Shown: piece after piece, positions 19,325 to 32,855 of the stretch | Layout of the letters: each line of letters starts with the position of its first letter | How positions within the stretch are numbered: the stretch's first letter is position 1 | The notes under the pieces: generated by a model | Database searches by the model: none | What the model was told of the DNA's origin: nothing | Seen by the model: only the letters and a program-made list of their open reading frames with translations | Assembly (NCBI RefSeq): GCF_035917995.1 | Contig: NZ_CP109131.1 | Location: 4,960,001 to 5,024,000 of the forward strand | Direction of reading: 5' to 3' | DNA length: 64,000 nt | Origin: Streptosporangium sp. NBC_01755 | GTDB lineage: Bacteria > Actinomycetota > Actinomycetes > Streptosporangiales > Streptosporangiaceae | Position numbers and translations under genes: made by a program

Positions 19325-20536
19325 TCAGACGAAGTGCACGAATCCCATGTACATCCCCATCGAGCAGATGTAGCGCAGGGAACCCGCGCCCCGTGCGCCG
19401 AGCCGCACGGTGGCGGGGAGCGCCACGTCGCGGCCGTCGATCGTGAGCGTCCGGTTGCAGCCGGGGTCGCCTGCGAGGCGGAAGACGAGTTCGGTGGGCA
19501 CTCCCGCGCGGGCGGTCACCACACCGGGACGGTAGCCGTCGCGGGTGGCCCAGATCTCGATCCGCTGCACGCCGCCGGTGCGCGTGGCCGTTCCCGCCGG
19601 GCCGTCCGGGGCGCCTGTCGGGCCGGCTGACGTCGTCCCTCGCCGGCCGCCCGTCATCTCCGCCGGGCCGTCCGTTGCCGGCACCGGATGGCCCACGGCT
19701 GGCGCCGGGCCGCCGGATCCGGGCAGCCAGCCTCCCAGGCGCAGCCCCGAGGAGACGGTCCACAGGCCCGCCGCCAGCGCGACGACCCCCGCCAGCGCCG
19801 CCAGCCTGGTGGCGGCGGCCCGCCGCAGGATGAGTCCGAGCAGTGCGAACGCCGGTGCCGTCCCGGCCACGAACCCCGCCATCACCGCGGCCCCGCCCAG
19901 CGCCGACCCGCTGGAGACCGCCACCATCTCGGTGCTGAGCGTCACCCCGCACGGCAGCAGGACCGTCGCCGCGCCCAGCGCCACCGCCCTGGGCGCGGGA
20001 GCGGTGATCCGGGAGAAGGCTCCGCGCCGGGGGGCGGCGTCGCGCCGGGGGGCACGCCCGTCCGCAGCCTCGTCGGGGCCGTGTTCACCGCTCGACCCGC
20101 CGCATCCCTGAGCCTGTCCGCACTCGTGCCCGTCCGGTTCGGGTTCGCGGTCCCGCTCGCGGCCGAACGTGCGGATCCCGAAGATCATGACCACGATCCC
20201 GGCCACGACGAGCAGTGCGGCCCTGAGCTGAGGACCCAGCTGTACGGCGGACCCCACCAGCCCGAGCAGGATCCCGGCCGCCACGTGGGAGCCGGAGCGC
20301 CCGGCCAGGAAGAGCGCGACGGCCGCCGGGCTCGACAGCCCCGCGGCGAGCCCGCCGCGCCCGCCGGAGCAGGCCGATCGGCCGCCGGAGGAGAGCCCGG
20401 TGAGCAGGCCGCCCTGCACGGCCGCGCACGAGGTGGTGCCCGCCACCAGCCCCGCGGCGAGCCCTCCGGCGAACAGTGTGGCCGCCCCCGCGCTCAGCGG
20501 ACATCTCCGGTATCGCTCCAGATCCCCACGGAGCAA
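19325..20536 (-). CDS. TauE/SafE (UreH-like) membrane protein fused to a cupredoxin-like domain
   Basis: 403 aa from TTG 20536, the only usable start. Two blocks of membrane segments each carry a cysteine-containing motif (GLVAGTTSCAAVQGG near residue 30 and VLLPCGVTLSTEM near 197), as in CcdA/DsbD-like and UreH-domain metal transport proteins. A His/Cys-rich cytosolic loop separates them (DGHECGQAQGCGG). The last 100 residues look like an extracytoplasmic cupredoxin: PGCNRTLTIDG and the copper-type ligand stretch YICSMGMYMGFVHF. The fusion suggests copper (or other thiophilic metal) capture outside coupled to membrane transfer, possibly for cytochrome oxidase assembly; SURF1 is in the same window but 15 kb away. 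Confidence 0.78.
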   Translation of the reverse strand: MLRGDLERYRRCPLSAGAATLFAGGLAAGLVAGTTSCAAVQGGLLTGLSSGGRSACSGGRGGLAAGLSSPAAVALFLAGRSGSHVAAGILLGLVGSAVQLGPQLRAALLVVAGIVVMIFGIRTFGRERDREPEPDGHECGQAQGCGGSSGEHGPDEAADGRAPRRDAAPRRGAFSRITAPAPRAVALGAATVLLPCGVTLSTEMVAVSSGSALGGAAVMAGFVAGTAPAFALLGLILRRAAATRLAALAGVVALAAGLWTVSSGLRLGGWLPGSGGPAPAVGHPVPATDGPAEMTGGRRGTTSAGPTGAPDGPAGTATRTGGVQRIEIWATRDGYRPGVVTARAGVPTELVFRLAGDPGCNRTLTIDGRDVALPATVRLGARGAGSLRYICSMGMYMGFVHFV

Positions 20537-20958: not shown

Positions 20959-21906
20959 ATGACGGCACCCCTGGTTTGGCTTCCGGCTGATCTGATCACC
21001 CGGGTGAGGTCTTACACAGCCCTTCGGATCGAGACCTACCCGGGTCCGCAGGGATTGAGGAGGCAAGAGTCGAATGTGGAGATCTTTGTCTTGCCGCATC
21101 CCGCCGACGCGGGGAGCCTCGATTTGGTTTCCACCATGCGGAGGCTGAAGTTCCTGCAGGCTCTGAGCTCAGGCGTCGATCACGTGATCGCTGCTGTGCC
21201 GGAACATGTGCCCTTGTTCAACGCCCCGAGTCTGCATGCAAGAGCCACGGCTGAGACGGCGATGAGTTTGCTGCTGGCGTCGTTGAACAACGTGCCGGCG
21301 TGGTCGGAGGCCCAGCGGCGTGGGGTGTGGTCCGATCCAGGTCCGCGAGTTGGCCTGGTCGGCAAGACGGTGGCCATTCTGGGGTTCGGCGCGGTGGGGC
21401 AGGCCCTGGCCGGAATGCTCGCGGGCTTCGATGTGCGTGTCCTCCCCGTGGCGCGTCGTTCCCGGCCCGGTGTGCATGGGGTCGTGGATCTGCCCGAGCT
21501 GGTCGGGGGTGTCGACGTGCTGGTCGTCTTGGTGCCGTTGTCTCATGAGACGCGAGGGTTGGTCGATCAGGATCTGCTGGGGCGGATGAAGGACGGCTCG
21601 CTGCTGATCAATGTTGCCAGGGGGCCGGTGGTCGACTCCGATGCCCTGCTTGCCGAGGTCTCCTCCGGCCGCCTGCGTGCGGGTCTGGATGTCGTCGATC
21701 CGGAGCCGTTGCCGGACGGTCATCCGTTGTGGGCCTGCCCCGGCGTGCTGATCAGTCCTCACGTCGGCGGTAATACCCGGGACTTCTGGGATCGCGCTGC
21801 GGCGTTCGTTGACGAGCAGCTCGAACGGTTCGTGCTCGGTTCCCCGCTCCGGCATCCGGTTGAGCGGACGGGGCAGCGGGATGGTCAGGTTCGGCCGTTG
21901 GCTTGA
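20959..21906 (+). CDS. D-isomer-specific 2-hydroxyacid dehydrogenase
   Basis: 315 aa from ATG 20959. The NAD-binding motif is GFGAVGQALAGM, followed by the catalytic triad context: Arg in NVARGPVVDSDAL, Glu in DPEPLPDGHPLW and His in ISPHVGGN. Family members reduce 2-keto acids to D-2-hydroxyacids or the reverse with NAD(P)H in the cytosol. It is short at the N-terminus compared with D-3-phosphoglycerate dehydrogenase and lacks a C-terminal ACT domain. Its stop overlaps by 22 bp the stop of the HisS-like gene arriving from the right, so the gene is physically tied to that operon and may supply a hydroxyacid to it. Confidence 0.9.
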   Translation: MTAPLVWLPADLITRVRSYTALRIETYPGPQGLRRQESNVEIFVLPHPADAGSLDLVSTMRRLKFLQALSSGVDHVIAAVPEHVPLFNAPSLHARATAETAMSLLLASLNNVPAWSEAQRRGVWSDPGPRVGLVGKTVAILGFGAVGQALAGMLAGFDVRVLPVARRSRPGVHGVVDLPELVGGVDVLVVLVPLSHETRGLVDQDLLGRMKDGSLLINVARGPVVDSDALLAEVSSGRLRAGLDVVDPEPLPDGHPLWACPGVLISPHVGGNTRDFWDRAAAFVDEQLERFVLGSPLRHPVERTGQRDGQVRPLA

Positions 21907-23141
21907 GTGGCCAGCCAACCAGCCAGATCCGTTCTCGCCACCCTGTGGTGCCGGCCGTCCTGGTCCCGGATGGTCAGCAGCGAGTCCGCCAGTTCGCGTT
22001 CGCCGATGAGCACGGAGTACGGCACGCCCAGCCGAGCAAAGTCCCGTAGATGCTGCCGGAGGGGCTTGGAGATCAGGACGTCCCAGACGGCGATGCCTTG
22101 GCCTCTCAGTTCTCTGCAGATGCTGTCAGCAATCTTGATCATCTCGTCATGGGGCTCGGCGAGGAGGGCGATGACGGCCGGTGGCACCGCGACTTTGGGG
22201 CCTTGGAGATCAGCGAGCCTTTCGAGGCCGATGACAGCGCTGTGAAGGCTGGTGGGTGTTCCGATGAACGCCTCGGCGAACGCTCCGTAGGAGCCGCCGT
22301 CTCCAAGGAGCCTCGGCTCGTTGTCAGGTCGCAGCAGGAATGCGGTGCTGTCGTGGAACTCGCTGGCGTGCAGCTCGGACAAGTCGATGATCGCGTTCAT
22401 TCCGCGGGCTCGAAGCTGTTCGGCCAGGGAGTGGCAGGCGGCAACCTGTTCTGATGCTGGTCCTCCGTTACGGAGGAGTTCGGCACCGGAGGGGTCAGCG
22501 ACGAGTTGCTCAGCGAGGAGGACTGCGGCGTCATCTGCGCCAGATTCGTGGAGGAGGGACGGCCGCTGTGATGCGTGAGCCGTTCGAAGGCGGTTGAGCA
22601 CACCGCTGAGTTCGGGTGACGCCGTCCCGCTGGCGATCAGGCCCCGCCATAGGCCGGGATTGGAGAGGGTGACGGTAAAGTTGAGCCTGCCCGTGAGGAA
22701 GTCGGCAAGCGTGAACAGGAGACGGGCGGTGGCCGCCTGGTGCTCTGGCGGGGTGAGCCTACGGAAATGGACCTCCATGAGGCCCAGATGGTGGAAGTGC
22801 CGACGTGGGCGGCGCTCGTACCGGAAGACCGGGGTGCAGTGGGCGATCCGCTGGTCAACGGCCTTCCGTCCTGCGGTGAGTCGGAGGAGGGAAGGAAGGC
22901 TGTCGGAGACCAGGGCCAGTTCGCGGCCGGCTCGGTCAGGGAAATGGTAGGTCCGCTCCCCCGCCGCGTGGTGCCCGGCGGTGAACGTGTCCGCGAAACC
23001 CACAGGCGGTACCTCGACAGGCTGGAACCCTGACAATCGACAGGTCTCAAACCAGTCGTGACGAATCTGATTGTGGGCTTCCGCGAGCTCCGGGGTGACG
23101 TCGTGCATCCCCCGGGGGAGGCCGAGGTGCCGCGAGGTCAT
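21885..23141 (-). CDS. HisS-like class II aminoacyl-tRNA-synthetase paralogue (degenerate)
   Basis: 418 aa starting at ATG 23141 in an ATGA overlap with hisS. N-terminus LGLPRGMHDVTPELAEAHNQ matches histidyl-tRNA synthetase; motif 2 region is VFRYERRPRRHFHHLGLMEV. The histidine-specific segment RGLDYYTG is absent (replaced around LRPDNEPRLLGDGGSYG), and the C-terminus (about 315-415) still folds like an anticodon-binding domain (FARLGVPYSVLIGERELAD). Such paralogues include HisZ, which regulates HisG, and several amino-acid-activating or amide-forming enzymes. No his biosynthesis gene is near, so I favour an aminoacyl-activating or transfer role in the operon's product; that is inference. Confidence 0.8.
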   Translation of the reverse strand: MTSRHLGLPRGMHDVTPELAEAHNQIRHDWFETCRLSGFQPVEVPPVGFADTFTAGHHAAGERTYHFPDRAGRELALVSDSLPSLLRLTAGRKAVDQRIAHCTPVFRYERRPRRHFHHLGLMEVHFRRLTPPEHQAATARLLFTLADFLTGRLNFTVTLSNPGLWRGLIASGTASPELSGVLNRLRTAHASQRPSLLHESGADDAAVLLAEQLVADPSGAELLRNGGPASEQVAACHSLAEQLRARGMNAIIDLSELHASEFHDSTAFLLRPDNEPRLLGDGGSYGAFAEAFIGTPTSLHSAVIGLERLADLQGPKVAVPPAVIALLAEPHDEMIKIADSICRELRGQGIAVWDVLISKPLRQHLRDFARLGVPYSVLIGERELADSLLTIRDQDGRHHRVARTDLAGWLATQANGRT

Positions 23142-24466
23142 GGCTGCGTAGGCCGTGACCAGCTCTCGAGGTCGGCGGGGGCCTGTTCGCCGCTGGTCAT
23201 GTCCTTCACCTCGTGCGGCTTGCCGTCTTCGAAGGGCGGGAACCAGATGAACGGAATGCCCTTGCGGGAGGCGTAGCGGATCTGTTTCCCGAGCTTGTCG
23301 GCCTGGTGGTAGACCTCCACCTTGAAGCCGCGGGACCGGAGCTGGGCCGCGGTGGCGTTGGCCAGCTTGGAGCGTTCGTCGCTGGGCACCACGACCAGGA
23401 GGTCGCTGGGGCTTTTCGGCCCGTCGACGGGCAGCAGCCCTTCGGCCAGGAGTTTGGCGAAGATCCGGGTGAGGCCGATGGAGATGCCGATGCCGGGCAG
23501 GCTGCGGCGGATGAACGTGCCTGCGAGGTTCTCGTACCGGCCGCCGGAGCAGATGCTGCCGTAGGTCGGGTAGTCGAGGAGTTTGCCCTCGTAGACGGTG
23601 CCTGTGTAGTAGTCGAGGCCTCGGGCGATGGACAGGTCGGCGCAGATGCCGCCCTCGGGCAGGTCGGCCAGTGAGTCCAGCACGAACGCGAGTTCGTCGA
23701 GGCCCTCGGTGAGCAGGTCGCTCTTGGGGCCGAGTGCGGCGATCTGCTCGACGACCGAGCTGTCGGTTCCGCGGATCCGGGCGAGGCTGAGGCAGGCTGT
23801 GGCTTGCTCGGCGGTCAGCCCGACCTGGGTGGTGAGGATCTGGGCGACTCCCTCCTCGCCGATCTTGTCGAGCTTGTCGGCCGCGCGGATGACCGCGATC
23901 GGGTCGTCGATGTCCAGACCCTCGTAGAAGCCCTGGAGCACCTTGCGGTTGTTGATGTTGATGCTGAACGGGCCTACGCGCAGACCGGTGAGGATCTCGT
24001 GCACGATCCGCGGCATTTCGGCGTCGAAGTGCAGCGGCACGCTGTCGACGCCGATCACGTCGATGTCGCATTGGGTGAACTCGCGGTAGCGGCCCTCCTG
24101 AGGCCGTTCACCGCGCCAGACCCGCTGGATCTGGTACCGCTTGAACGGGAAGACCAGGTCGTTGAAGTGCTGGGCGACGTAGCGGGCCAGCGGCACCGTC
24201 AGGTCGAAGTGCAGACCGAGACGGGCATCGCTGTCGTCTTCGCCGCCCTGAAGGCGACGCAGGGTGTAGACCTCCTGCGAGGTCTCGCCTTTGGCCAGGA
24301 GCGCGTCAAGGACCTCGACCGACGGGGTCTCGACCGAGCAGAATCCGTACCGCTCGAAGGCGTCGCGAATCTGGTCGAGCCAAGCCAGTTCGATCAGACG
24401 GACCTCGGGAAGCCACTCCGTGAATCCGCTGATGGGGGCCGGCCGGACAATCTGCTCGTCGGTCAT
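23138..24466 (-). CDS. hisS: Histidyl-tRNA synthetase (second-type, in operon)
   Basis: 442 aa from ATG 24466. Class II motifs are intact: motif 2 as RVWRGERPQEGRYREFTQCD, the HisRS-specific ARGLDYYTGTVYE, and motif 3 as GIGISIGLTRIF; a C-terminal anticodon-binding domain follows. It therefore looks able to charge tRNA-His with histidine using ATP. It ends in an ATGA overlap with the degenerate paralogue and follows a glycosyltransferase by 93 bp. A HisRS inside a non-ribosomal-looking operon can be a resistant copy protecting against the product, a supplier of His-AMP or His-tRNA to a pathway enzyme, or the cell's sole HisRS; this window cannot decide. Confidence 0.93.
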   Translation of the reverse strand: MTDEQIVRPAPISGFTEWLPEVRLIELAWLDQIRDAFERYGFCSVETPSVEVLDALLAKGETSQEVYTLRRLQGGEDDSDARLGLHFDLTVPLARYVAQHFNDLVFPFKRYQIQRVWRGERPQEGRYREFTQCDIDVIGVDSVPLHFDAEMPRIVHEILTGLRVGPFSININNRKVLQGFYEGLDIDDPIAVIRAADKLDKIGEEGVAQILTTQVGLTAEQATACLSLARIRGTDSSVVEQIAALGPKSDLLTEGLDELAFVLDSLADLPEGGICADLSIARGLDYYTGTVYEGKLLDYPTYGSICSGGRYENLAGTFIRRSLPGIGISIGLTRIFAKLLAEGLLPVDGPKSPSDLLVVVPSDERSKLANATAAQLRSRGFKVEVYHQADKLGKQIRYASRKGIPFIWFPPFEDGKPHEVKDMTSGEQAPADLESWSRPTQP

Positions 24467-24559
24467 TCCGGGTGATCTCTTCTCGTCTTTGAAGGTGGAC
24501 GGGAGCCGGTACCTACCTTGAGCGCGGCACCGTCCAAAGTCTAAAGCCCACCTGGTGCA

Positions 24560-25699
24560 TCACGATGACCATAGTGACCGACAGTGATCAAAGAGGTCCC
24601 GTGCTTGGTCGCGGACCGTGCCGTACCAGTCGGCACGTCCCTTGATCTCGTGGTGATGCCCCACCACACGACTGAGGAACAGGGTCTCCAAGAGGCTGAT
24701 GGGGATCTCTCGATGCTGGTCCCTGATCCATGCGAGGAGGACCTCCCTCCACAACGGCCAGGGCAGACCTTGAGGCAAGGCACCCGAGGAACTGCGCTCC
24801 CGCAGCTGGTCGGTAAGGGCCTCGGGCAGATGGTTAGTGGCTCCTGTGCCGAGGTCGGCCGCCAGGCGGAGACTGGTTTCTGCTGCGAGCTGGGAGATGT
24901 CCGCGTCTTGTGCAGGGACAGGTCGGCTGTCACCGGCTGGAGTCGCCATGGGTGCGGCGTCGAACCGTTGCGGAGGCGGATGCCCCAGCCTGAGGCGGCA
25001 GCGTTCCTGGAGAGAGATCGCGACCTCCGCGAACTTGGGTCCCATTCCGAAGCCGCCGGAGAAGCTGCGTAGCTTGTTGCGGCGCCGTTCCTGGAGCGGG
25101 ACCATCCGCCAAGACGACGACAGGGCCACGGATGCGACGAGGGCGTCGACGCCGAATCTGTGCGCGCTGTCCGTCCAGTTCTGATCGAGGACGAGCTTCG
25201 CACCGCGGCGGCTGAGGGCGATGTCGCCGCAGAGCGGCTCCCGGAGATCTGCTCCGAAGACGCCGGCGAGCATGGGATAGGCGAGTTGGTAGGTGAGGTC
25301 GCCGCCGTTCCAGGTGGGCGGGCGTAGCGGGAAAGCGAAGTCGCTGTCCGAGGCGGCGATGATCAGTTTGTGGATCCAGGAGGCGGGCACGCCCCCGAGA
25401 TCCGTGTCGACCATCACACCGATGTCGAACTCGCCCTCATCCAGAAGCCGGAACAACGCCTGCCAGTTCGTACCCTTGCCGGAGGCATGAGCGGTGGTCA
25501 GTACCCGCTTCGGATGCTGGGTGGCCGTGGTCAGGAACTGTTCCGCGGTTCTGTCTGTGGAGGAGTTGTCTGCGTTGACGAGCAACGCGGTGACCGGGAA
25601 GGGCGCCGCGCTCAGAGCGGCATCGATGTCCCGGGTCACGGTCGCGATGGTCTCGGCCTCGTTGAAGCTGGGGAGGCCGACCAGGATCCGGAGCGTCAT
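24560..25699 (-). CDS. Glycosyltransferase, GT2/GT81-like (GpgS or mannosylglycerate-synthase-like)
   Basis: 379 aa from ATG 25699, in an ATGA overlap with the preceding ligase gene. The GT-A core is clear: ILVGLPSFNEAETIATV, VNADNSSTDRT, the GKGTNWQALF donor-site region, and the metal-binding DTD in GVMVDTDLGG. The acceptor half has PLRPPTWNGGDLTYQL and PLCGDIALSRRG, resembling glucosyl-3-phosphoglycerate and mannosylglycerate synthases, which transfer a sugar with retention to a small carboxylated alcohol. No signal or membrane segment. In this operon a soluble acceptor such as a hydroxyacid made by the neighbouring dehydrogenase would fit, but that is speculation. Confidence 0.82.
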   Translation of the reverse strand: MTLRILVGLPSFNEAETIATVTRDIDAALSAAPFPVTALLVNADNSSTDRTAEQFLTTATQHPKRVLTTAHASGKGTNWQALFRLLDEGEFDIGVMVDTDLGGVPASWIHKLIIAASDSDFAFPLRPPTWNGGDLTYQLAYPMLAGVFGADLREPLCGDIALSRRGAKLVLDQNWTDSAHRFGVDALVASVALSSSWRMVPLQERRRNKLRSFSGGFGMGPKFAEVAISLQERCRLRLGHPPPQRFDAAPMATPAGDSRPVPAQDADISQLAAETSLRLAADLGTGATNHLPEALTDQLRERSSSGALPQGLPWPLWREVLLAWIRDQHREIPISLLETLFLSRVVGHHHEIKGRADWYGTVRDQARDLFDHCRSLWSS

Positions 25700-26601
25700 G
25701 GCTGATCACTGACTGAGTCGATCCAGATCACCTCTGGTGAGTGGGCGAGCTCATCCGCGGTCCTGATGCACAAGCCGTCGAAATGGTAAAGGTCTCCGTC
25801 CGTCACCGCGCAGTGCAGGATGAACGGTGGTCCTTCGATGGTCGTGACCGGCCCGAAGGTGTGGACGTCGACGACCGTGACGTAGAGGACCTTGAACGTC
25901 GACAGGCTCTGCCGCAGGAGAGAACGGACGAGGGAGACGACTTTACCGGGATCATGTTCGCCGTTCTGGACGGCCTGGCGGCCTGCTTCCAGCGCCGTGT
26001 AGATGCTTCCGACCTCTGCGAGCCGCTCCGCGGGCAGGAAACGCAGCCGGGAGGAGAGGGGGACTCCGCTGCCTCTCAGCCGGACGCAGGGGACGTGCCT
26101 GATCTCGCAGTCGATCATGAGGTCCTGGGTGGCACGCTGGACCAGCAGGGCCTGTTCGATGTCTTTCATTCCGAAGTAGCTGGCCGTCGGGCGGCACAGG
26201 GAGATCCACCGGATGGCGCCGGTGACCTGGCCGCGTGAGGCGAAGTCGAAGACGGAATTGTTGAGCCGTTGGTGGCGCTCGCCCTGGTCGATGAAGGTCG
26301 CGTACTCCGGCGGGTACATCTCCTGGTCGTCGGAGGAGATGACGATGGTGGCACCGCGGGACTCGGCCAGGGCGATGTCGGCGTCGAGGTCGTACTGGTA
26401 GACGCTGCCGGGAAAGAGCTGGATCCGGTTGGGGTAGACCGTCACGATCGTCTGATCGTTTTCGTTCGCCGACCGCTGGATGAGTTCGCCGTGGGCGTTG
26501 TGCAGCGCGCCGAGCGTGTGGATGGAGCCGATCGACTGACCGGTTCCCCAGAGCTCTCGCAGGATCGGGCGGGCGTCGGCGACGGACTTGATGTGCAGCA
26601 A
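25696..26601 (-). CDS. Pantoate-beta-alanine-ligase (PanC)-like ATP-dependent ligase
   Basis: 301 aa from ATG 26601. It matches PanC over its length: HTLGALHNAH (PanC has the HIGH-type MGALHxGH), SSDDQEMYPPE, SYFGMKDIEQALLVQR, and the KMSKS-like LSSRLRFLP. Departures include Asn-Ala in place of Glu-Gly in the HIGH-like motif and a replaced pantoate-pocket segment (VTVYPNRIQLFPGS for the usual FVNPxQF). PanC activates an acid as acyl-adenylate and couples it to an amine. With the changed pocket and no other pan gene nearby, I infer a repurposed amide-forming ligase acting on another acid, possibly with the HisS-like proteins encoded downstream. Confidence 0.8.
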   Translation of the reverse strand: MLHIKSVADARPILRELWGTGQSIGSIHTLGALHNAHGELIQRSANENDQTIVTVYPNRIQLFPGSVYQYDLDADIALAESRGATIVISSDDQEMYPPEYATFIDQGERHQRLNNSVFDFASRGQVTGAIRWISLCRPTASYFGMKDIEQALLVQRATQDLMIDCEIRHVPCVRLRGSGVPLSSRLRFLPAERLAEVGSIYTALEAGRQAVQNGEHDPGKVVSLVRSLLRQSLSTFKVLYVTVVDVHTFGPVTTIEGPPFILHCAVTDGDLYHFDGLCIRTADELAHSPEVIWIDSVSDQP

Positions 26602-26637
26602 CGCGCACCTCTCGGCAAAGGGATCTCGGTAGACGAT

Positions 26638-28500
26638 TCAGGAATGGGGAGAGACCTCGGCAACCTGCCCTCCCCAGCGAGCGGACAGGTCGATGGCGTC
26701 GTTCAGGTGGTCGGCGAAGCCCGAAGGATGCCGCACGCGGATCTTGACCGGCACGCTTCGTCTTGAGGGCCTTGTCGGAACGGACCCGCTCAGCAGGGCC
26801 TGCGCTGCGGCGTGCGTGTCGTAGGCGGCTTCGAAATGGCTGTCGGCAGTTGGAGCCGAAGCTCGTGCTTCGAGGTCGGCGCGAGGAAGCAGCGTGGTGT
26901 CGTGGAGCGCGAGTTGTCGGCACGTGTCCCGAAGCACGGTGTCGTCGATGAGGTGATCGAGAAAGGCGATCAACAACTCCCGGCTCTCGTCACGGTCGGT
27001 GTAGATCGCGCTACGGACTCGGCTACGGAGGATCCGGTGGAAGTAGCACTCGGCGTGGATCTCATCGAAGGCTTTGGACAGGACCCGGCCGAGCCGTCCC
27101 TCTTGCCCTGCGACGAAAGCCGGAAGTGCGTCGAGGACTTCGGTCGGCCGCAGACCGGCCCAGTGGGCCATGCCCCGGACGGTCGTGCGGGCCCAGCCGG
27201 AGCCGATCAAGATCTCATCCGCGAGCAGGAGTCGTAGGCCGGCCCGGTTCTCTTCGATGTCGAGGGTGGTGTGCTGGAGGACTCCCTCGTAGTCGACCGA
27301 AGGATCCGGGCGGATCGTGATCAGCCCGAGCTTCTCGCGGTCAGCGTCATAGCTGGTGTTCGGCAGGATCCACAGCGGGTGGATCAGCAGGCTCGGGAAG
27401 GACAGAAAGAGTTCGTCATAGGCGGCCCGGAACTCACTCAGAGTCTCGCCGGGGAGCCCGAAGATGAGTTCTGCGCCGACATGGCCACCGGCGGCGATCA
27501 CACGCTGGGCCATCGCGGTCATCTCCGAGCGTCCGAGCTCTGACCTGCCGGCGAGTTGTAAGGCGGGACGGCTCATCGTCTGCAGCGCCAGGTACACGTT
27601 GGTGTGGATGCCCCCGGCCTGGAAGACGGCCAGAATCTCCTCGACAGTTTTCGCGTGGTTCTTGGCCCAGTTCACATGAACGGTGTGGGGAGAGCCGTGC
27701 CGTTGGAGCGCTCGCACCAGCATGTGGGCGACTTCCACGTCTTGGCGGAGGATGCCGAAGTTCGCGTCGCAGAGGAAGATCGTGTCGATTCCGGCACTGC
27801 CGATGACGTCGATCTCTGTTTCGAGCCGATCAGATGCGGCCTTCGTCAGCTTCTGGCCCACGGCTCCGCCCCAGTGGCAGAACGCGCAGTGATACGGACA
27901 TCCCCGGTTCGTCTCCCACAGCGCGACGTCGAACTGTGTCAGGTCCAGGCCCGGCCGCAGGTAGGCAGACGGTGTCTCGTCGAGGGACGCCATCCGAGGT
28001 CGATCAGCGGTCGCGACGACCGTGCCTGACTGCCGGAAGGCGAGACCCTCGATGTCCGCCCACGCGGGAATGCCGTCGCGGATCGAATGGACGAGTTCGC
28101 ATATCGTCCGTTCGCCCTCCCCGGTGATCACCAAATCCAGTTCCGGGAGTTCACGAAGCCAGCGTTCGCCCTGGTGGGACACGTGGTTGCCACCGAACAC
28201 GATGACCGCGTCGGGCAGGAGCTGGCGGAGGGTGGGCAGCATCTGCCGGTAGGCGATCACGTTCCAGCCCTGGCAGGAGAAGCCCAGAAGATCTGGTTGG
28301 GCTGCGCGGATCTCTTCGATGATCGAGGCAAGGCTCGTACCCGACAGGAACGTGTGGAGGGAGATCTCCACATTGTCCCTGAGCCGTTCATCGCCGACCA
28401 GAGCCGCGTTGAGCAGCATGATTCCCAGGGGCGTGTAGGCAATCTTCGTCTCGCCTGAGAGATCTACCAAACTGATCCTGAATTCACCGGCGGAGGTCAC
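26638..28500 (-). CDS. Cobalamin-binding-domain radical SAM enzyme
   Basis: 620 aa from GTG 28500. Residues 1-165 look like a class B B12-binding Rossmann domain (ISLVDLSGETKIAYTPLGIM, then IVFGGNHVSHQGERW) without a DxHxxG motif, as usual for this class. The radical SAM core carries the 4Fe-4S motif CPYHCAFC at about residue 204, followed by SAM-site residues in FGLPGETLSEF. The 200-residue C-terminus is helical. Such enzymes perform methylations of unactivated carbons, ring rearrangements or cyclisations. It is the first gene of the operon, 36 bp before the PanC-like gene. An IS element lies 50 bp upstream and may have separated it from its native promoter. Confidence 0.88.
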   Translation of the reverse strand: MTSAGEFRISLVDLSGETKIAYTPLGIMLLNAALVGDERLRDNVEISLHTFLSGTSLASIIEEIRAAQPDLLGFSCQGWNVIAYRQMLPTLRQLLPDAVIVFGGNHVSHQGERWLRELPELDLVITGEGERTICELVHSIRDGIPAWADIEGLAFRQSGTVVATADRPRMASLDETPSAYLRPGLDLTQFDVALWETNRGCPYHCAFCHWGGAVGQKLTKAASDRLETEIDVIGSAGIDTIFLCDANFGILRQDVEVAHMLVRALQRHGSPHTVHVNWAKNHAKTVEEILAVFQAGGIHTNVYLALQTMSRPALQLAGRSELGRSEMTAMAQRVIAAGGHVGAELIFGLPGETLSEFRAAYDELFLSFPSLLIHPLWILPNTSYDADREKLGLITIRPDPSVDYEGVLQHTTLDIEENRAGLRLLLADEILIGSGWARTTVRGMAHWAGLRPTEVLDALPAFVAGQEGRLGRVLSKAFDEIHAECYFHRILRSRVRSAIYTDRDESRELLIAFLDHLIDDTVLRDTCRQLALHDTTLLPRADLEARASAPTADSHFEAAYDTHAAAQALLSGSVPTRPSRRSVPVKIRVRHPSGFADHLNDAIDLSARWGGQVAEVSPHS

Positions 28501-28550: not shown

Positions 28551-29992
28551 GTACTACATTCGCAGATCTTGGGGTAGTGGGTCGCCGCGCCTTCGGTAGT
28601 GGCTGATCGGCGCGCGGGCTTGGTGGAGTCGGCGGAAGCGTGACCAGGCCAGCACATGCTCGACGCAGGTGACGGCGGCGAGCAGGGTACGGGCGAGCAG
28701 GCGGCGGATCTCGGCCAGGGAGAGAGGGATCAGCCGCGGTGTCGTCAGCTGCTCCTCTCCTTCGTCCGTGGGTCTTTTCCCAGGCGGGCGCGGGTGACGG
28801 CGAGCCAGGCCAGAGCGAGCATGGAGGTGGTGACGTGCCGGTGGAACGGGGTCCACTTGCGGACCTGGTACTCATCCAGGCCGAGCAGGTCCTTGCCGGA
28901 CTCGTTGTTCTCCTCGATCTTCCAGCGCATTCCGGCAACCGAGATCAACTCCGGTACGGCCGTGCCGGCCGGGGCGTGGGCCAGGAAGAACTTCACCTCG
29001 GCCGGGTTGGATATCGAGCGGCGCAGCAGCAGGGTATGGGTGAATCCGGCAGCGGGCGCCTGGTCGGTGACCGTCACCGCGATCGCGGTCCAGTCATACA
29101 CGCGGGCGCCCTTGGTGCCCGCCCCGCACGAGCGGCGTTCCCACACCGACCTCTTCCCCAGAGCCAGCAGCCGATCCAGGACATGGCCCGCGCATTCGCT
29201 CTGTCCGCGCACCCCGACCAGGGGAAGATCGACCGGCACCGCCAGCACGTAGGCGACCTCACGCCGATGGCAGAACTCCCGCAGGTCCGGGTCGCGGCCG
29301 TAGCCGGCGTCGGCGGCGAAGTAGTCCAGTCCCACTCCGGCCGCCAGTTGCCGCTCCAGCATCAACGCCATCAGCTGCGGCTTGGTCAGGAAGTCGCGGT
29401 CTGCGGGTACTCCGGCCCGCGCGCGCCGTTCGGCGTCGGCGGCCCAGCCCTGGGGGAGGTACAACTCTCGGTCGATGAAGGCGTGCCCGCGCTCACTGGC
29501 ATACGACAGCATGCAGATGACCTGGCAGTTCTCCACCTGACCGGTCAACCCGCAATGCTGGTGGGCCACCCCGACCGACCGATCCCCTTTCTTGATCACA
29601 GCGGTGTCGTCGCCAACGAGCACGGCCGGCCCGCCACCCGCCGCCTCGGGCCGCAGACCGGCCACGACGTAATCCCGCACCCGGTCGCGCAACGCGTCGG
29701 CGTCCCACTTGGCGCCGTTCAACAGCCACTCGATCCGATACGCCGTGCCATGCCCGACATGATCGGCCAGCTGCCAGGAGTTCTTGCGGGCCACATCGGC
29801 CAGCAGGCCGCGCACCAGATCCGCGAACGTCGCCCTCGGCTCCGGACGGGTGAACAACGGCCCGGCGATCTCCTCACTCAACTCGCGAAGATCTTCCTCC
29901 CAGGCCACGATCCGATCGTAGGTGATGATGTCCATCATCCCTGGTCAACGGGCTACACCCGGCACTCATTCCATGATCTACGAATGTAGTAC
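28551..29992 (-). mobile_element. IS701-type insertion sequence (about 1.44 kb)
   Basis: The ends are matching inverted repeats: GTACTACATTCGCAGATC at 28551-28568 and its near-perfect complement at 29975-29992 (one mismatch in 18). Inside lies a DDE transposase on the minus strand. If the outer GTAC is counted as target duplication, the true tips start at TACATTCG and the duplication is the 4-bp GTAC; this cannot be settled from one copy. The element sits between the radical SAM gene (start at 28500) and a spacer before the Uma2 gene. Confidence 0.85.
28554..29938 (-). pseudogene. IS701-family DDE transposase, split by a frameshift
   Basis: The main frame begins at ATG 29938 (or 29935) and reads to 28745 (397 aa): ADHVGHGTAYRIEWLLNGAK, VLVGDDTAVIKKG (first catalytic Asp region), LDYFAADAGYGRD (second) and RWKIEENNESGKDLLGLDEY (Glu), the IS701/IS4-like DDE set. 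It stops early at 28745, while the family C-terminus continues in the -1 frame as LTTPRLIPLSLAEIRRLL to 28554 inside the terminal repeat. The frames overlap around 28745-28856. Either a one-base mutation inactivated the element or a -1 shift occurs; no classic slippery heptamer is evident, so I call it a mutation. Confidence 0.8.
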
Positions 29993-30223: not shown

Positions 30224-30868
30224 TCAGGAGGGGGTCGTTGACACTGTGCCCTGGGCGGTCGCGAAGATCGACGTGTCGAGGGTGAAGTCGACCGGTTCTG
30301 GAATGTGCAGGTGCGAGCCCATCTCGACCCGGGTGGAGGTCCGGTACGCCCCTTCCTTGGGGTCGCTGAGGACCGTCACGGTGGCGGGGGTGGCCACGGG
30401 GTCGATGAGGAGCATCACGGGGACGCCGCCGGAGGCGTAGATGTCGGGCTTGCGGTCGCGGTCGTCGGTGACGCTTCCCGGCGACACGATCTCGGCCACC
30501 ATGAGCAGGCCGGAGGAGAGCAGCTCGCGGTCGCCCCAGCGCGGGCAGTCGACCCGGGCCAGCACGAAGTCGGGAACAACCGGGTCATAGGACCCGTCGA
30601 CGCAGACCGCGACGTTGCTCGTGTAAGCCTCCAGATCGCCATCCGTGATCAGTGGGTGGAGCCGTAAGGAAAGGAGCATCGCAGCTCGGGCGTATTCGGG
30701 GGTCCCCAGTGGGCTCACCACCAACCTTCCGCCGATCACCTCGGCACGTAACCCTGGAAGGGAGGGAAGTGCGTCGAAGAGCTCGCGCGGTGTGTGCGGC
30801 AGGGGTCGGGACGCGGTCTCGGGTGATGGCCGCAGATCCGCGTGGCGCCGTCGTAGTTCCATACCCAT
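30224..30868 (-). CDS. Uma2-family endonuclease-like protein (DUF820)
   Basis: 214 aa from ATG 30868. It has the restriction-endonuclease-like PD-(D/E)XK pattern of the Uma2 group: YDPVVPDFVLAR (Asp), LLMVAEIVSPGS (Glu) and DRDRKPDIYASGGV (Lys), with the typical opening LPSLPGLRAEVIGGRLVVSP. Such proteins are very numerous in cyanobacteria and actinomycetes; their role is unknown, with suggestions of mobile-element or defence function. It lies next to an IS element. The last five residues (STTPS) derive from the hairpin region, so the natural C-terminus may have been altered. Confidence 0.85.
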   Translation of the reverse strand: MGMELRRRHADLRPSPETASRPLPHTPRELFDALPSLPGLRAEVIGGRLVVSPLGTPEYARAAMLLSLRLHPLITDGDLEAYTSNVAVCVDGSYDPVVPDFVLARVDCPRWGDRELLSSGLLMVAEIVSPGSVTDDRDRKPDIYASGGVPVMLLIDPVATPATVTVLSDPKEGAYRTSTRVEMGSHLHIPEPVDFTLDTSIFATAQGTVSTTPS

Positions 30869-30952
30869 ATGCCCCTCCGTGCTGTTGTGAACACGCTGAG
30901 TTTTCCAGAGTGAGGGGGTGAAGCGCGGAATTCTGGTGAAAAAGCGAGAGGA

Positions 30953-31600
30953 TCAGACCCAGCCGGGGCGGACGAGGCCGGATTCGTAGGCGATGACGAC
31001 GAGCTGGGCACGGTCGCGGGCATGGAGTTTCATCATGGTCCGGCTGACGTGGGTCTTGGCGGTGGCGGGGCTCATGCAGAGCTTGCCGGCGATCTCGTCG
31101 TTGGTCATGCCGGTGCCGACCAGGGCGAGGACCTCGCGCTCCCGGTCGGTGAGCAGGTCGAGATCGCGGCTGCGGTGCGGCTCCTTGGCACGGCTGGCGT
31201 ACTCGGCGATCAGGCGGCGGGTCACGCCGGGGGAGAGCAGCGCGTCGCCTCCGGCCACCACCCGGACGGCCTGGATGAGCTCGGCCGGTTCGGTGTCCTT
31301 CACCAGGAAGCCGCTGGCGCCGTTGCGGAGGGCCTCGAAGACGTACTCGTCGAGCTCGAAGGTGGTCAAGATGATGATCCTCGGCCCGGGAGGCATCTCC
31401 CGGGTGGCGGTCAGCCCGTCCATGCCGGGCATGCGGATGTCCATCAGGACCACGTCCGGCTCGTGCTCGGCGGCCAGCCGCAGTGCCTGCGCCCCGTCCG
31501 AGGCCTCGGCCACCACGGTCATCCCCGGCTGCGCGTCCAGCAGGGCCCGGAACCCGGCCCTGACGAGGGCCTGGTCGTCGGCGAGGACAATCTTGATCAT
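30953..31600 (-). CDS. NarL/LuxR-family response regulator
   Basis: 215 aa from ATG 31600, overlapping the kinase stop by ATGA. Receiver domain 1-125 with acidic pocket LADDQ and phospho-acceptor Asp in VVLMDIRMPG (about residue 54) and Lys in LVKDTEP; C-terminal LuxR helix-turn-helix LTDREREVLALVGTG then LCMSPATAKTHVSR. It partners the histidine kinase encoded immediately upstream. Targets unknown; autoregulation and the divergent gamma-glutamyltransferase are candidates by position. Confidence 0.95.
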   Translation of the reverse strand: MIKIVLADDQALVRAGFRALLDAQPGMTVVAEASDGAQALRLAAEHEPDVVLMDIRMPGMDGLTATREMPPGPRIIILTTFELDEYVFEALRNGASGFLVKDTEPAELIQAVRVVAGGDALLSPGVTRRLIAEYASRAKEPHRSRDLDLLTDREREVLALVGTGMTNDEIAGKLCMSPATAKTHVSRTMMKLHARDRAQLVVIAYESGLVRPGWV

Positions 31601-32784
31601 TCGGACTCCTCCGGGATCGGCAGCCGGGCCTCGACGCGGAAGCCCCTTCCATGGTGTGCGGCGGTCAGCGTTCCCCCAAGGGCCGAGGCCCGTTCCCGCA
31701 TGCCGGGGACGCCGTTGCCACTGCCGAGATTCTCTCCGGGGGCGTTGCCGCCCGAGTCGGTGACCCGGAGGGTCAGCGCGCGGGGGCCGTAGTCGAGGGC
31801 GACCGTGACCGAGGCGCCCGGGGCGTGCCTGGTGACGTTGGTCAGGGCCTCCTGAACGATGCGGTAGCCGGCCCGGTCGACCCCGGGAGGCAGTGGCCTG
31901 ACCTCGCCGGTGACGTTCTTGACGACCCGCAGCCCGCTGCGCTCGGTGAGCTCGTCGAGCCGGTCCAGGCCGGCGGTCGGGGAGCGGGGCGCGCCGTCGC
32001 GGAGCACGTTGAGCACCGAGCGCATCTCGGTCAGCACGTCCTTGGACGCCTGCTTGATCGTGGTGAGCGCGGTCCGCGCCTGCTCGGGGTGGTCCTCGAT
32101 GAGGTGCAGCGCGGTGGAGGCCTGGACGTGGATGAGGGAGATGTTGTGCGCGAGCACGTCGTGCAGCTCCTGCGCCATGGTCAGCCGCTCCTCGCTGGCC
32201 TGCCGCCGCACCTCCTCCCGCTCCACCCGCTTGTGCTCGGCCTGCCGCTCGTTTCTGGCCCGTACGAACTCCGCCACCGCCAGTACCAGGCCCATCAGCG
32301 CGGCCATCGCGATGTTGTGGAACCAGCCGGGAGAGGGGGCGGGGGCGAACCAGGACGTGTAGACCACGAAGAACACGTAGGCCAGGCCCCATAGCGGCCA
32401 GGCCACCCGCCGGTGGCCGCCGACCACGGCGGTGTGGAACGCGATGATCGGGCTGAGGAAGACCGGGCCGTAGGCGTGGCCCAGGCCGATGAAGAGCAGG
32501 GTCGAGCCCACCGCGACGGCCACGCTGAGCGCCGGGTGGCGGCGCCGGACGGTCAGGGCCAGCGGCCCGGCCAGCAGCAGCACGTAGCCCAGCGGATCGA
32601 GCGGGACGCGGAGCATGCCGGTGTCGTGGATCTGCGACCACTGCACGCCGAGTGTGCCCGCGACCTGGAGGGCCCCCACGAACAGCGGTAGGAGAAGGTC
32701 GACCCAGCGGGGTTTGGCACGCACGCTCAGCACTGTACGTGCGCTTCCATAGCGGTTACGTCCGTTCAGTGAGGTATGTGGCAC
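31597..32784 (-). CDS. NarL-type sensor histidine kinase
   Basis: About 395 aa. The start is set at GTG 32784 because AAGGGA lies six bases upstream; the frame is open to TTG 32835, and GTG 32733 is also possible. Four to five hydrophobic segments (about 25-175) are followed by a HisKA_3 dimerisation domain with the phospho-His in LTMAQELHDVLAHNISLI and an HATPase domain (QEALTNVTRHAPG, then GVPGMRERASALGG). No extracellular sensor domain of size is present, so it senses through the membrane part. It overlaps its response regulator by 4 bp and diverges from the gamma-glutamyltransferase gene, with only about 70 bp between starts. Confidence 0.93.
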   Translation of the reverse strand: MPHTSLNGRNRYGSARTVLSVRAKPRWVDLLLPLFVGALQVAGTLGVQWSQIHDTGMLRVPLDPLGYVLLLAGPLALTVRRRHPALSVAVAVGSTLLFIGLGHAYGPVFLSPIIAFHTAVVGGHRRVAWPLWGLAYVFFVVYTSWFAPAPSPGWFHNIAMAALMGLVLAVAEFVRARNERQAEHKRVEREEVRRQASEERLTMAQELHDVLAHNISLIHVQASTALHLIEDHPEQARTALTTIKQASKDVLTEMRSVLNVLRDGAPRSPTAGLDRLDELTERSGLRVVKNVTGEVRPLPPGVDRAGYRIVQEALTNVTRHAPGASVTVALDYGPRALTLRVTDSGGNAPGENLGSGNGVPGMRERASALGGTLTAAHHGRGFRVEARLPIPEESE

Positions 32785-32855
32785 TACATCCCTTGGGTTA
32801 GGGAAGGGGCTGACAAGGCTCACCGGCTGAGTCAAGCTGTCTGCGGGAGGTCTTC

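Follow-up and report, generated by a model that had tools for sequence, protein, structure and literature searches.

A conserved and sparsely distributed gene block pairing a complete with a degenerate histidyl-tRNA synthetase in Streptosporangium sp. NBC_01755

Introduction

Does a tightly packed run of genes of unfamiliar composition mark a biosynthetic pathway, and if so, what might such a pathway make? The question is raised by positions 20959-28500 of a 64,000-nucleotide stretch of DNA (contig NZ_CP109131.1, positions 4,960,001 to 5,024,000; hereafter the window) from Streptosporangium sp. NBC_01755, whose genome is a single contig of 8.15 Mb. Five minus-strand genes here encode a B12-binding radical SAM protein, a PanC-like adenylate-forming amide ligase, a family-2 (GT-A) glycosyltransferase, a complete accessory histidyl-tRNA synthetase (HisRS; the gene product is called HisS) and a degenerate HisRS paralogue (HisS-like), while a D-2-hydroxyacid dehydrogenase gene converges on them. 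A sequence-only reading of the window had taken the five genes for an unclassified operon and had named their co-occurrence in other genomes as the check. All six open reading frames were confirmed to be present, open and identified, as were the ATGA overlaps reported at the PanC-like/glycosyltransferase (25699-25696) and HisS/HisS-like (23141-23138) junctions and a 22-base overlap between the 3' ends of the dehydrogenase and HisS-like genes.

Judged from the sequences compared, the block is conserved yet sparsely distributed, and it is very probably a biosynthetic one. The cluster is apparently undescribed, and belongs to a kind already known, namely natural-product clusters with a pair consisting of a synthetase and a synthetase-like protein. 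No cluster combining a HisRS/HisRS-like pair with PanC-like and pentapeptide-repeat (PPR) proteins was found described in the open-licence literature, a weak form of evidence because only articles under open licence were covered and most were judged by title and the start of the abstract. Together with the recurrence detailed below, this literature result supports the view of the block as an unclassified conserved biosynthetic operon.

Recurrence and distribution of the block

Recurrence was assessed in a collection holding one genome for each of 84,980 species, scanned with a PanC-like profile that uses two short peptide patterns; because only these two patterns were used, divergent members were missed. 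The scan returned 42 loci, comprising three from Actinomycetota, one from Polyangiaceae, one from an unclassified bacterium (WY2), seven from Clostridia and 30 from Bradyrhizobium. Within 10-kb flanks of the PanC-like gene, a HisS-like gene is present in 12 of 12 loci from outside Bradyrhizobium and in none of the 30 Bradyrhizobium loci, and none was found in the one complete Bradyrhizobium genome searched. A HisS match accompanies it in 10 of these 12 loci, the two loci without one (L035 and L057) ending soon past PanC-like. Genes for PanC-like, glycosyltransferase, HisS and HisS-like occur together in the window and in all three other actinobacterial loci, so that the co-occurrence check named by the sequence-only reading holds for the minus-strand block.

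Around this core the composition varies. The radical SAM gene is present in the window, in Actinocorallia sp. API 0066 (L017, labelled Thermomonosporaceae), in Nocardia puris (L018) and in L020, while the L019 contig, from a metagenome-assembled genome, starts inside the PPR gene. The family-2 glycosyltransferase is found in the window and in L017-L019. L018 and L019 share a Ddl-like ATP-grasp protein, and L018 alone has a PanE-like reductase. A PurD-like ligase follows PanC-like in L020 and in six of the seven clostridial loci, the seventh of which ends at a contig end, and the block genes of L020 are additionally interspersed with those for a family-4 glycosyltransferase and an amidotransferase of the asparagine-synthase type. 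Peptidases of family S66 are encoded in all seven clostridial loci and, some 3 kb away, in WY2.

Linkage was also gauged from protein searches, in two of three of which only the 8000 best candidates were scored, by matching contigs of equal length, taking the longest contig per cluster. By this measure 18 of 44 glycosyltransferase homologues lie on contigs as long as that of a PanC-like homologue (mean 0.18 with perturbed lengths), as do 14 of 67 HisS-like proteins, with seven lengths common to all three families. On contigs of at least 10 kb, 13 of 28 HisS-like proteins and 13 of 20 glycosyltransferases match a PanC-like contig. Some of the misses are known to be false, such as that of Nocardia puris, whose 211092-base contig does carry PanC-like in L018; real ones may be among the rest. 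The PanC-like protein search for the most part did not reach the clostridial members of the family.

Among close relatives the block is rare. PanC-like is found in one of 394 genomes of the class and three of 345 genomes of the order, the window genome included each time, in none of the 15 other genomes listed for the same genus, and in two of 191 genomes of the clostridial order; HisS-like is likewise found in one of the 394 class genomes. A second assembly, on a contig of 8.05 Mb, encodes PanC-like and HisS-like proteins identical to those of the window. A glycosyltransferase search of 60 relatives gave 13 matches at 1e-3, of which only those in the window and in genome G037 are strong, the others scoring 3e-7 or weaker. 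Because the block occurs in distant phyla and is absent from close kin, horizontal spread is suggested. The GC content of the five operon genes is 64-66%, compared with 69.5% for the window as a whole.

A complete HisRS beside a degenerate paralogue

The ascamycin work provides a precedent for synthetase-family pairs: in Streptomyces sp. 80H647, AcmD is a complete accessory alanyl-tRNA synthetase (AlaRS), able to charge tRNA and more resistant to the product than the canonical enzyme, whereas AcmF is AlaRS-like, forms its own clade, lacks most of the residues for ATP binding and alanine activation, and takes alanine from charged tRNA (PMC12945691).

The window gene at 24466-23138 (minus strand) encodes HisS, which scores 356.6 bits against TIGR00442 and so passes the curated hisS cut-off of 286.75 bits. 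Nine charged residues are conserved in HisRSs (PMC8558854), and window HisS keeps the charge at all nine. In a single MAFFT alignment of 14 HisS-like, 12 cluster HisS and 14 other HisS proteins, the 14 host-type proteins likewise keep the charge at every one of these positions, and the 12 cluster proteins all do so at eight of the nine, with Glu47 kept in seven and replaced by Cys in five clostridial copies. The host has its own housekeeping HisS elsewhere in the genome (6753390-6754289), to which the window protein is 25% identical; its identity to the L020 and L021 cluster copies is 45%, and the tree groups it with these copies (support 100/99 and 95/94), apart from the included host copies. 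By these comparisons the accessory HisS is complete as a HisRS and distinct from that of the host. This property, and the S66 peptidases near the WY2 and clostridial relatives, support the suggestion of the sequence-only reading that a spare HisS could be a self-protecting copy. As a separate observation, the clostridial genomes G897 and G898 each encode three full-length HisS proteins, two of one type and one of the cluster type, along with a HisZ-like and a HisS-like protein.

HisS-like, encoded at 23141-21885 (minus strand), is a predicted aminoacyl transferase. In the same alignment all 14 HisS-like proteins, which represent about five lineages since seven are close clostridial relatives, have lost the charge at five of the nine positions (Glu47, Glu131, Arg259, Glu270 and Arg287). 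All 14 retain an acid at position 83 and the motif-2 Arg113, while Asp13 is kept in 13 and Asp141 in nine. Motif 2 is shortened by three residues in each of the nine proteins shown, HxxE (YxxE in WY2) and DGG motifs stand in place of RGLDYY and GGRY, and a set comprising D80, R107, E261 and the DGG at 281-283 is invariant. The motif-3 Arg (GLER) is kept in the window, L017, L018 and L019 proteins and lost in the other 10, as it is in some true HisRSs. HisS-like falls below the hisS cut-off (86.4 versus 286.75 bits) and below the hisZ cut-off (61.6 versus 271.65 bits). An AlphaFold2 model (pLDDT 84) finds its best PDB matches among HisRSs, with a TM score of about 0.6.

HisS-like proteins from four lineages form one clade (100/100), some of whose branches are long. 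The tree held eight HisS-like sequences and left out L069 (the Polyangiaceae host HisS, of incomplete frame) and L087; three sequences were shortened by removal of long 5' extensions, the L019 host HisS carries an uncertain label, and long branches (L021_like, L020_like, L021_hk and others) were flagged. On its residues and scores, HisS-like is not a HisRS, and it has the sequence hallmarks of an AcmF-type transferase: it is a paralogue in a clade of its own, its adenylation-site residues are lost, and a complete synthetase adjoins it.

Two other roles for HisS-like must be weighed against that of a transferase. It might be an ATP-dependent ligase for an acid other than histidine, which it would hand to an amine after a change of its pocket, leaving HisS to provide resistance only. 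The HisRS fold, the retention of Arg113 and of the acid at position 83 throughout, and the GLER motif of the four proteins named above are consistent with such an enzyme; the loss of charge at Arg259, Glu131 and Glu47 in all 14, the loss of the motif-3 Arg in 10, and the presence in the Actinomycetota loci read of PanC-like or an AMP-binding enzyme that already supplies adenylation make it an unlikely one. Rather less likely is a non-catalytic regulatory or sensing subunit comparable to HisZ or GCN2, acting for example by sensing the charging of tRNA-His or by binding HisS. Several public records do annotate HisS-like as an ATP phosphoribosyltransferase regulatory subunit, and the HisRS-like domain of GCN2 offers a precedent (PMC4052509). 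Set against these points are the shortfall from the hisZ cut-off and a tree position separate from HisZ-labelled clostridial proteins, and the invariant set looks like a new conserved site rather than decay. Identification of HisS-like as HisZ itself was dropped, given the missed cut-off and a clade distinct from three clostridial proteins that had been labelled HisZ by length and operon.

The lost first gene and the PPR protein

The five genes listed by the sequence-only reading all stand; what it missed is a truncated partner immediately upstream. At 28550-28497 on the minus strand lie the last 17 codons and the stop of a PPR gene, recognised by frame, coordinates and identity to L017, where the intact gene ends DEVEALASLLARDPGKST followed by a stop codon; the window remnant reads EVEAFAALLAKDPGKST, likewise followed by a stop that overlaps the GTG start of the radical SAM gene at 28500. 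The DNA is 71% identical to that of Actinocorallia over 249 bp spanning this junction, and in both Actinocorallia and Nocardia puris the stop of an intact PPR gene overlaps the start of the radical SAM gene. The five-gene operon is a six-gene unit whose first gene has been lost. Directly upstream of the remnant is an IS701-family element (28551-29992, minus strand; transposase reading frame 29938-28745, NCBIfam NF033540, 361 bits), the ends of which are placed by inverted repeats at 28551-28565 and 29978-29992 that match at 14 of 15 positions. Since the element abuts the remnant, it is the probable cause of the loss, and no PPR copy was found in the window genome when the L018 protein was used as query (0 matches at 1e-10).

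Without its PPR gene this strain may have a weakened or inactive pathway, and one could go further and regard the window copy as a decaying, non-functional island, left over after the IS701 event took away the first gene. The truncation, the lack of a PPR orthologue in the genome at the threshold just given and the divergence of HisS-like, which with 65% identity to Actinocorallia has changed more than the other four genes, agree with decay. Yet the five remaining frames are open, with no internal stops; compared with Actinocorallia they show nonsynonymous divergence (dN) of 0.04-0.26, synonymous divergence (dS) of 0.43-1.19 and a dN/dS of about 0.1-0.22. Although most of this divergence may predate the insertion, decay is considered quite improbable.

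Orthologues, 39-53% identical over the full length, lie beside the block in L017-L020 and beside PanC-like in 31 of 31 Bradyrhizobium loci (one plasmid counted), being broken in three of the latter (L025, L047 and L055). None was found in the WY2 or clostridial loci, and none in the 394 class genomes, a search that contained no positive. The Bradyrhizobium pair loci (L022, L023, L025, L027, L029-L034, L036-L055 and L059) also hold, near the pair, an oligopeptide-type ABC transporter in 23-25 of 31 cases. Genes that by eye resemble those for a P450 and a flavin monooxygenase lie near it in 19 and 18 loci, respectively.

The PPR gene further occurs on Streptomyces linear plasmids, within a larger second cluster that includes genes for HisS, HisS-like, an M16 peptidase, an AMP-binding enzyme, aminotransferases and ABC transporters; no PanC-like gene was found in the plasmid stretches read. 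The same seven Streptomyces records carry the PPR gene and its HisS-like. No HisS-like was found in plasmid records at 1e-15, a search that did not reach these Streptomyces proteins because they are too distant; they surfaced through PPR and their own HisS-like as queries. In the plasmid of Streptomyces sp. Mg1 (L140, NZ_CP011665.1, 4584-24094) the larger cluster also encodes a YggS-like protein, and its HisS-like is annotated as an ATP phosphoribosyltransferase regulatory subunit.

What the PPR protein does is a separate and sharply testable question, raised by its conserved tail. All 33 intact tails (28 from Bradyrhizobium, with those of L017-L020 and L140) end in Ser-Thr (29) or Ser-Ser (four, all from Bradyrhizobium, whose copies are close kin), and the window remnant ends within the same pattern. 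Eight representatives agree at both of the last two positions, while pairwise identity over the preceding 28 is 0.04-0.46, with one value of 0.75. The end of the gene overlaps the start of the next in L017, L018, L140 and the window, where a codon constraint is possible; no such overlap exists in L020 or Bradyrhizobium. The structural model gives high confidence to the solenoid and low confidence to the last six residues, past a C-terminal helix, and solved PPR structures span about half the length of this protein. An ordinary role in gyrase protection is disfavoured by the double length, the tail and the linkage.

A flexible tail with a conserved extreme end is a typical feature of carriers and of ligase substrates, and it is because the extreme C-terminus is conserved on such a tail that a carrier role is proposed here. 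The PPR protein would be a rigid beta-solenoid whose C-terminal -Ser-Thr/Ser carboxylate serves as the assembly site: PanC-like, or the AMP-binding enzyme in Streptomyces, would activate or extend this end, HisS-like would add histidine from tRNA, the modifying enzymes would work on the unit while it is tethered, and a HisRS inhibitor would be released by a peptidase such as that encoded by the M16 gene of the Streptomyces cluster. The proposal is speculative and on balance unlikely to be right, and the tail would suit a docking or recognition tag just as well. If true, it would describe a new protein-tethered, tRNA-dependent assembly of small molecules common to Actinomycetota, Myxococcota and, in part, Bradyrhizobium, and the PPR/PanC-like pair is the part that may prove categorically new.

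The remaining enzymes and the flanks

PanC-like (26601-25696, minus strand; PF02569, 122 bits) lies below the curated panC cut-off (143.3 versus 212.75 bits). A comparison of 21 PanC-like with six housekeeping PanC proteins (eight loci had been given, two of which yielded no sequence through the motif filter) identified 30 near-invariant positions common to both groups, including HxxH, Lys146-Asp147, Gln61, Gln150 and Ser183-Ser184-Arg185, and 19 near-invariant positions that are switched between them. From the catalytic residues kept and the positions switched, PanC-like is predicted to be an intact adenylating ligase whose acid or amine substrate has changed. Two of the switched positions would correspond to the pantoate contacts Pro38 and Met40 of M. 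tuberculosis PanC. Of the two families that the sequence-only reading had credited with making adenylates, PanC-like keeps its catalytic residues, and the claim is unsupported for the degenerate HisS, from which residues of the adenylation site are gone.

The idea that PanC-like is a duplicate serving the coenzyme A pathway was dropped on account of these switches and of another PanC in six of 13 genomes searched, among them the window genome with its separate housekeeping PanC. In the other seven (WY2, five Clostridia and the L019 genome) no second PanC was found, and there the rejection rests on the switches and the neighbours. Two further homologues deserve mention. P0116, on a 5885-base contig, has Trp where its relatives have Gly at several positions, which suggests a candidate-phylum bacterium that reads as Gly the TGA translated here as Trp; P0120, on a 4.7-Mb contig of the gammaproteobacterium Pectobacterium parvum, is a divergent PanC-like protein of 42% identity.

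The radical SAM protein (28500-26638, minus strand) has a B12-binding domain (PF02310), a radical SAM domain (PF04055) and the CxxxCxxC motif (CPYHCAFC). Its nearest named family is that of the KedN5-type C-methyltransferases (NF033712), against which it scores 398 bits and does not reach the cut-off of 700. The glycosyltransferase (25699-24560, minus strand) matches named families weakly throughout; it is distant kin of dolichol-phosphate-mannose synthase and of the glucosyl-3-phosphoglycerate and mannosylglycerate synthases, and lies below the glucosyl-3-phosphoglycerate synthase cut-off (33.2 versus 262 bits).

The convergent gene encodes the D-2-hydroxyacid dehydrogenase (20959-21906, plus strand; PF02826, 155 bits). 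In the pathway proposed by the sequence-only reading, this enzyme supplies a hydroxyacid, the HisS pair activates histidine for an amide, and glycosylation follows. Adjacency in the window, the catalytic residues of PanC-like and the PanE-like reductase near L018, as a possible stand-in, speak for that pathway. No dehydrogenase homologue was found in any of the 42 related loci or in 45 other loci, the PanE-like gene is limited to one locus, and HisS-like is short of adenylation-site residues; membership of the dehydrogenase is unsupported and was dropped, and the pathway in this form appears quite unlikely. Beyond the block and the IS701 element, the flanks at 30224-32835 and 19325-20536 encode, as named by eye, a Uma2-like protein, a two-component system and a membrane protein with a cupredoxin-like end, none of which was found in the related loci compared.

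A proposed pathway and its weight

We infer the chemistry, product and target of the cluster as follows. The block would be the core of a small natural-product cluster, the HisRS counterpart of the AcmD/AcmF logic, producing a glycosylated histidine-related amide aimed at HisRS. HisS would charge tRNA-His as an insensitive, self-protecting copy, and HisS-like, by analogy, would pass to a pathway intermediate an aminoacyl group, most likely the histidyl of His-tRNA. PanC-like, to go by its family, would adenylate a pantoate-like 2-hydroxy acid and join it to an amine; the B12 radical SAM protein would C-methylate and the glycosyltransferase would glycosylate. The product might resemble an aminoacyl-adenylate or otherwise bind HisRS, which by analogy would be the target, and the compound first suggested from the window, an amide of histidine with a hydroxyacid that also bears a sugar, is possible. 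The mechanism as a whole is proposed tentatively, with a little less than even confidence; the rival readings weighed here are not all mutually exclusive.

Several observations weigh against this mechanism. Firstly, the retention of Arg113 throughout and of the motif-3 Arg in four proteins means that HisS-like may have residual use of ATP. Secondly, the WY2 HisS-like (L021) has only 320 residues and stops after motif 3, and the clostridial and Streptomyces HisS-like proteins contain no recognised anticodon-binding domain, features that weaken any general recognition of His-tRNA. Thirdly, window HisS also shares 38-40% identity with the HisS proteins native to the clostridial hosts, and the clostridial cluster HisS is of another type, with relatives of 66-76% identity in four genomes of the order that are without PanC-like, so that the link between HisS and the cluster is weaker in Clostridia. 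Additionally, Bradyrhizobium carries the PanC-like and PPR pair without HisS-like, the window copy is without an intact PPR gene, and no S66 peptidase was found in the window region or in L017-L020. The branch of the WY2 S66 peptidase is ambiguous (168 bits to a PDB 'MccC family' S66 protein, 51-75 to MccF and 67 to muramoyltetrapeptide carboxypeptidase). Finally, no tRNA-His gene was found in any of the 11 sources scanned, and a dedicated tRNA-His gene as part of the cluster was dropped.

The interest of the mechanism is that an intact and a disabled HisRS, side by side, predict a compound, a self-resistance gene and a transferase at once. No natural product is known to be made by HisRS or to have it as a target. 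In a 2021 review of synthetase inhibitors, mentions of HisRS were found only in the classification and in one reference. Named strains in which to look for the compound are Actinocorallia sp. API 0066 and Streptomyces sp. Mg1.

Comparison with known systems

PanC-like resembles PanC in its fold family and in keeping HxxH, KD, SSR, Gln61 and Gln150 (window numbering), and differs from it at the 19 switched positions and in falling below the curated cut-off. The PPR protein shares the beta-solenoid of pentapeptide repeats with Qnr, MfpA, AlbG and HetL; unlike these proteins, it is about twice as long, forms one orthologous family tied to the loci, and ends in a C-terminal helix and a low-confidence -S-T/S tail. 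In LysW carrier-protein pathways the C-terminus of a gene-encoded protein is the site of extension, and in PEARL scaffold-peptide pathways that of a gene-encoded peptide is. The present loci differ from both in that no PEARL homologue appears among the Pfam matches of the genes scanned and the carrier role of the PPR protein is a proposal.

The S66 peptidases invite comparison with MccF, the microcin C immunity protein. That of the clostridial locus L024 scores 368 bits to an MccF-like protein in the PDB, 139-161 to MccF and 60-69 to murein or muramoyltetrapeptide carboxypeptidase entries, and by these scores belongs clearly to the MccF-like branch; it was the only clostridial copy so compared, the six others being 71-82% identical to it in the best segment. 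A product resembling an aminoacyl-adenylate fits the loci because an MccF-like peptidase stands beside the clostridial versions. Unlike the microcin C system, S66 genes accompany only the WY2 and clostridial loci, with none in the window. The same peptidases may be set beside AcmE, the hydrolase that reverses aminoacylation in the ascamycin system (PMC12945691).

It is AcmD and AcmF that the HisS pair most closely recalls: in both cases a complete accessory synthetase adjoins a degenerate paralogue that forms its own clade and has lost activation residues (PMC12945691). The analogy covers architecture and residue loss, and from it transfer activity is proposed. The present system differs in being built on HisRS rather than AlaRS, in its spread across phyla, and in the company of PanC-like, B12 radical SAM, glycosyltransferase and PPR genes. 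A further likeness is to SbzA, an isoleucyl-tRNA synthetase (IleRS)-like protein of the sbz cluster for SB-203207 and SB-203208, where a synthetase-family protein is encoded together with the pathway to an inhibitor of the matching synthetase, one of the products of that cluster (PMC12945691). Whereas SbzA is one extra copy with both roles, in the block described here the roles appear to be split, between HisS on the one hand and HisS-like on the other.

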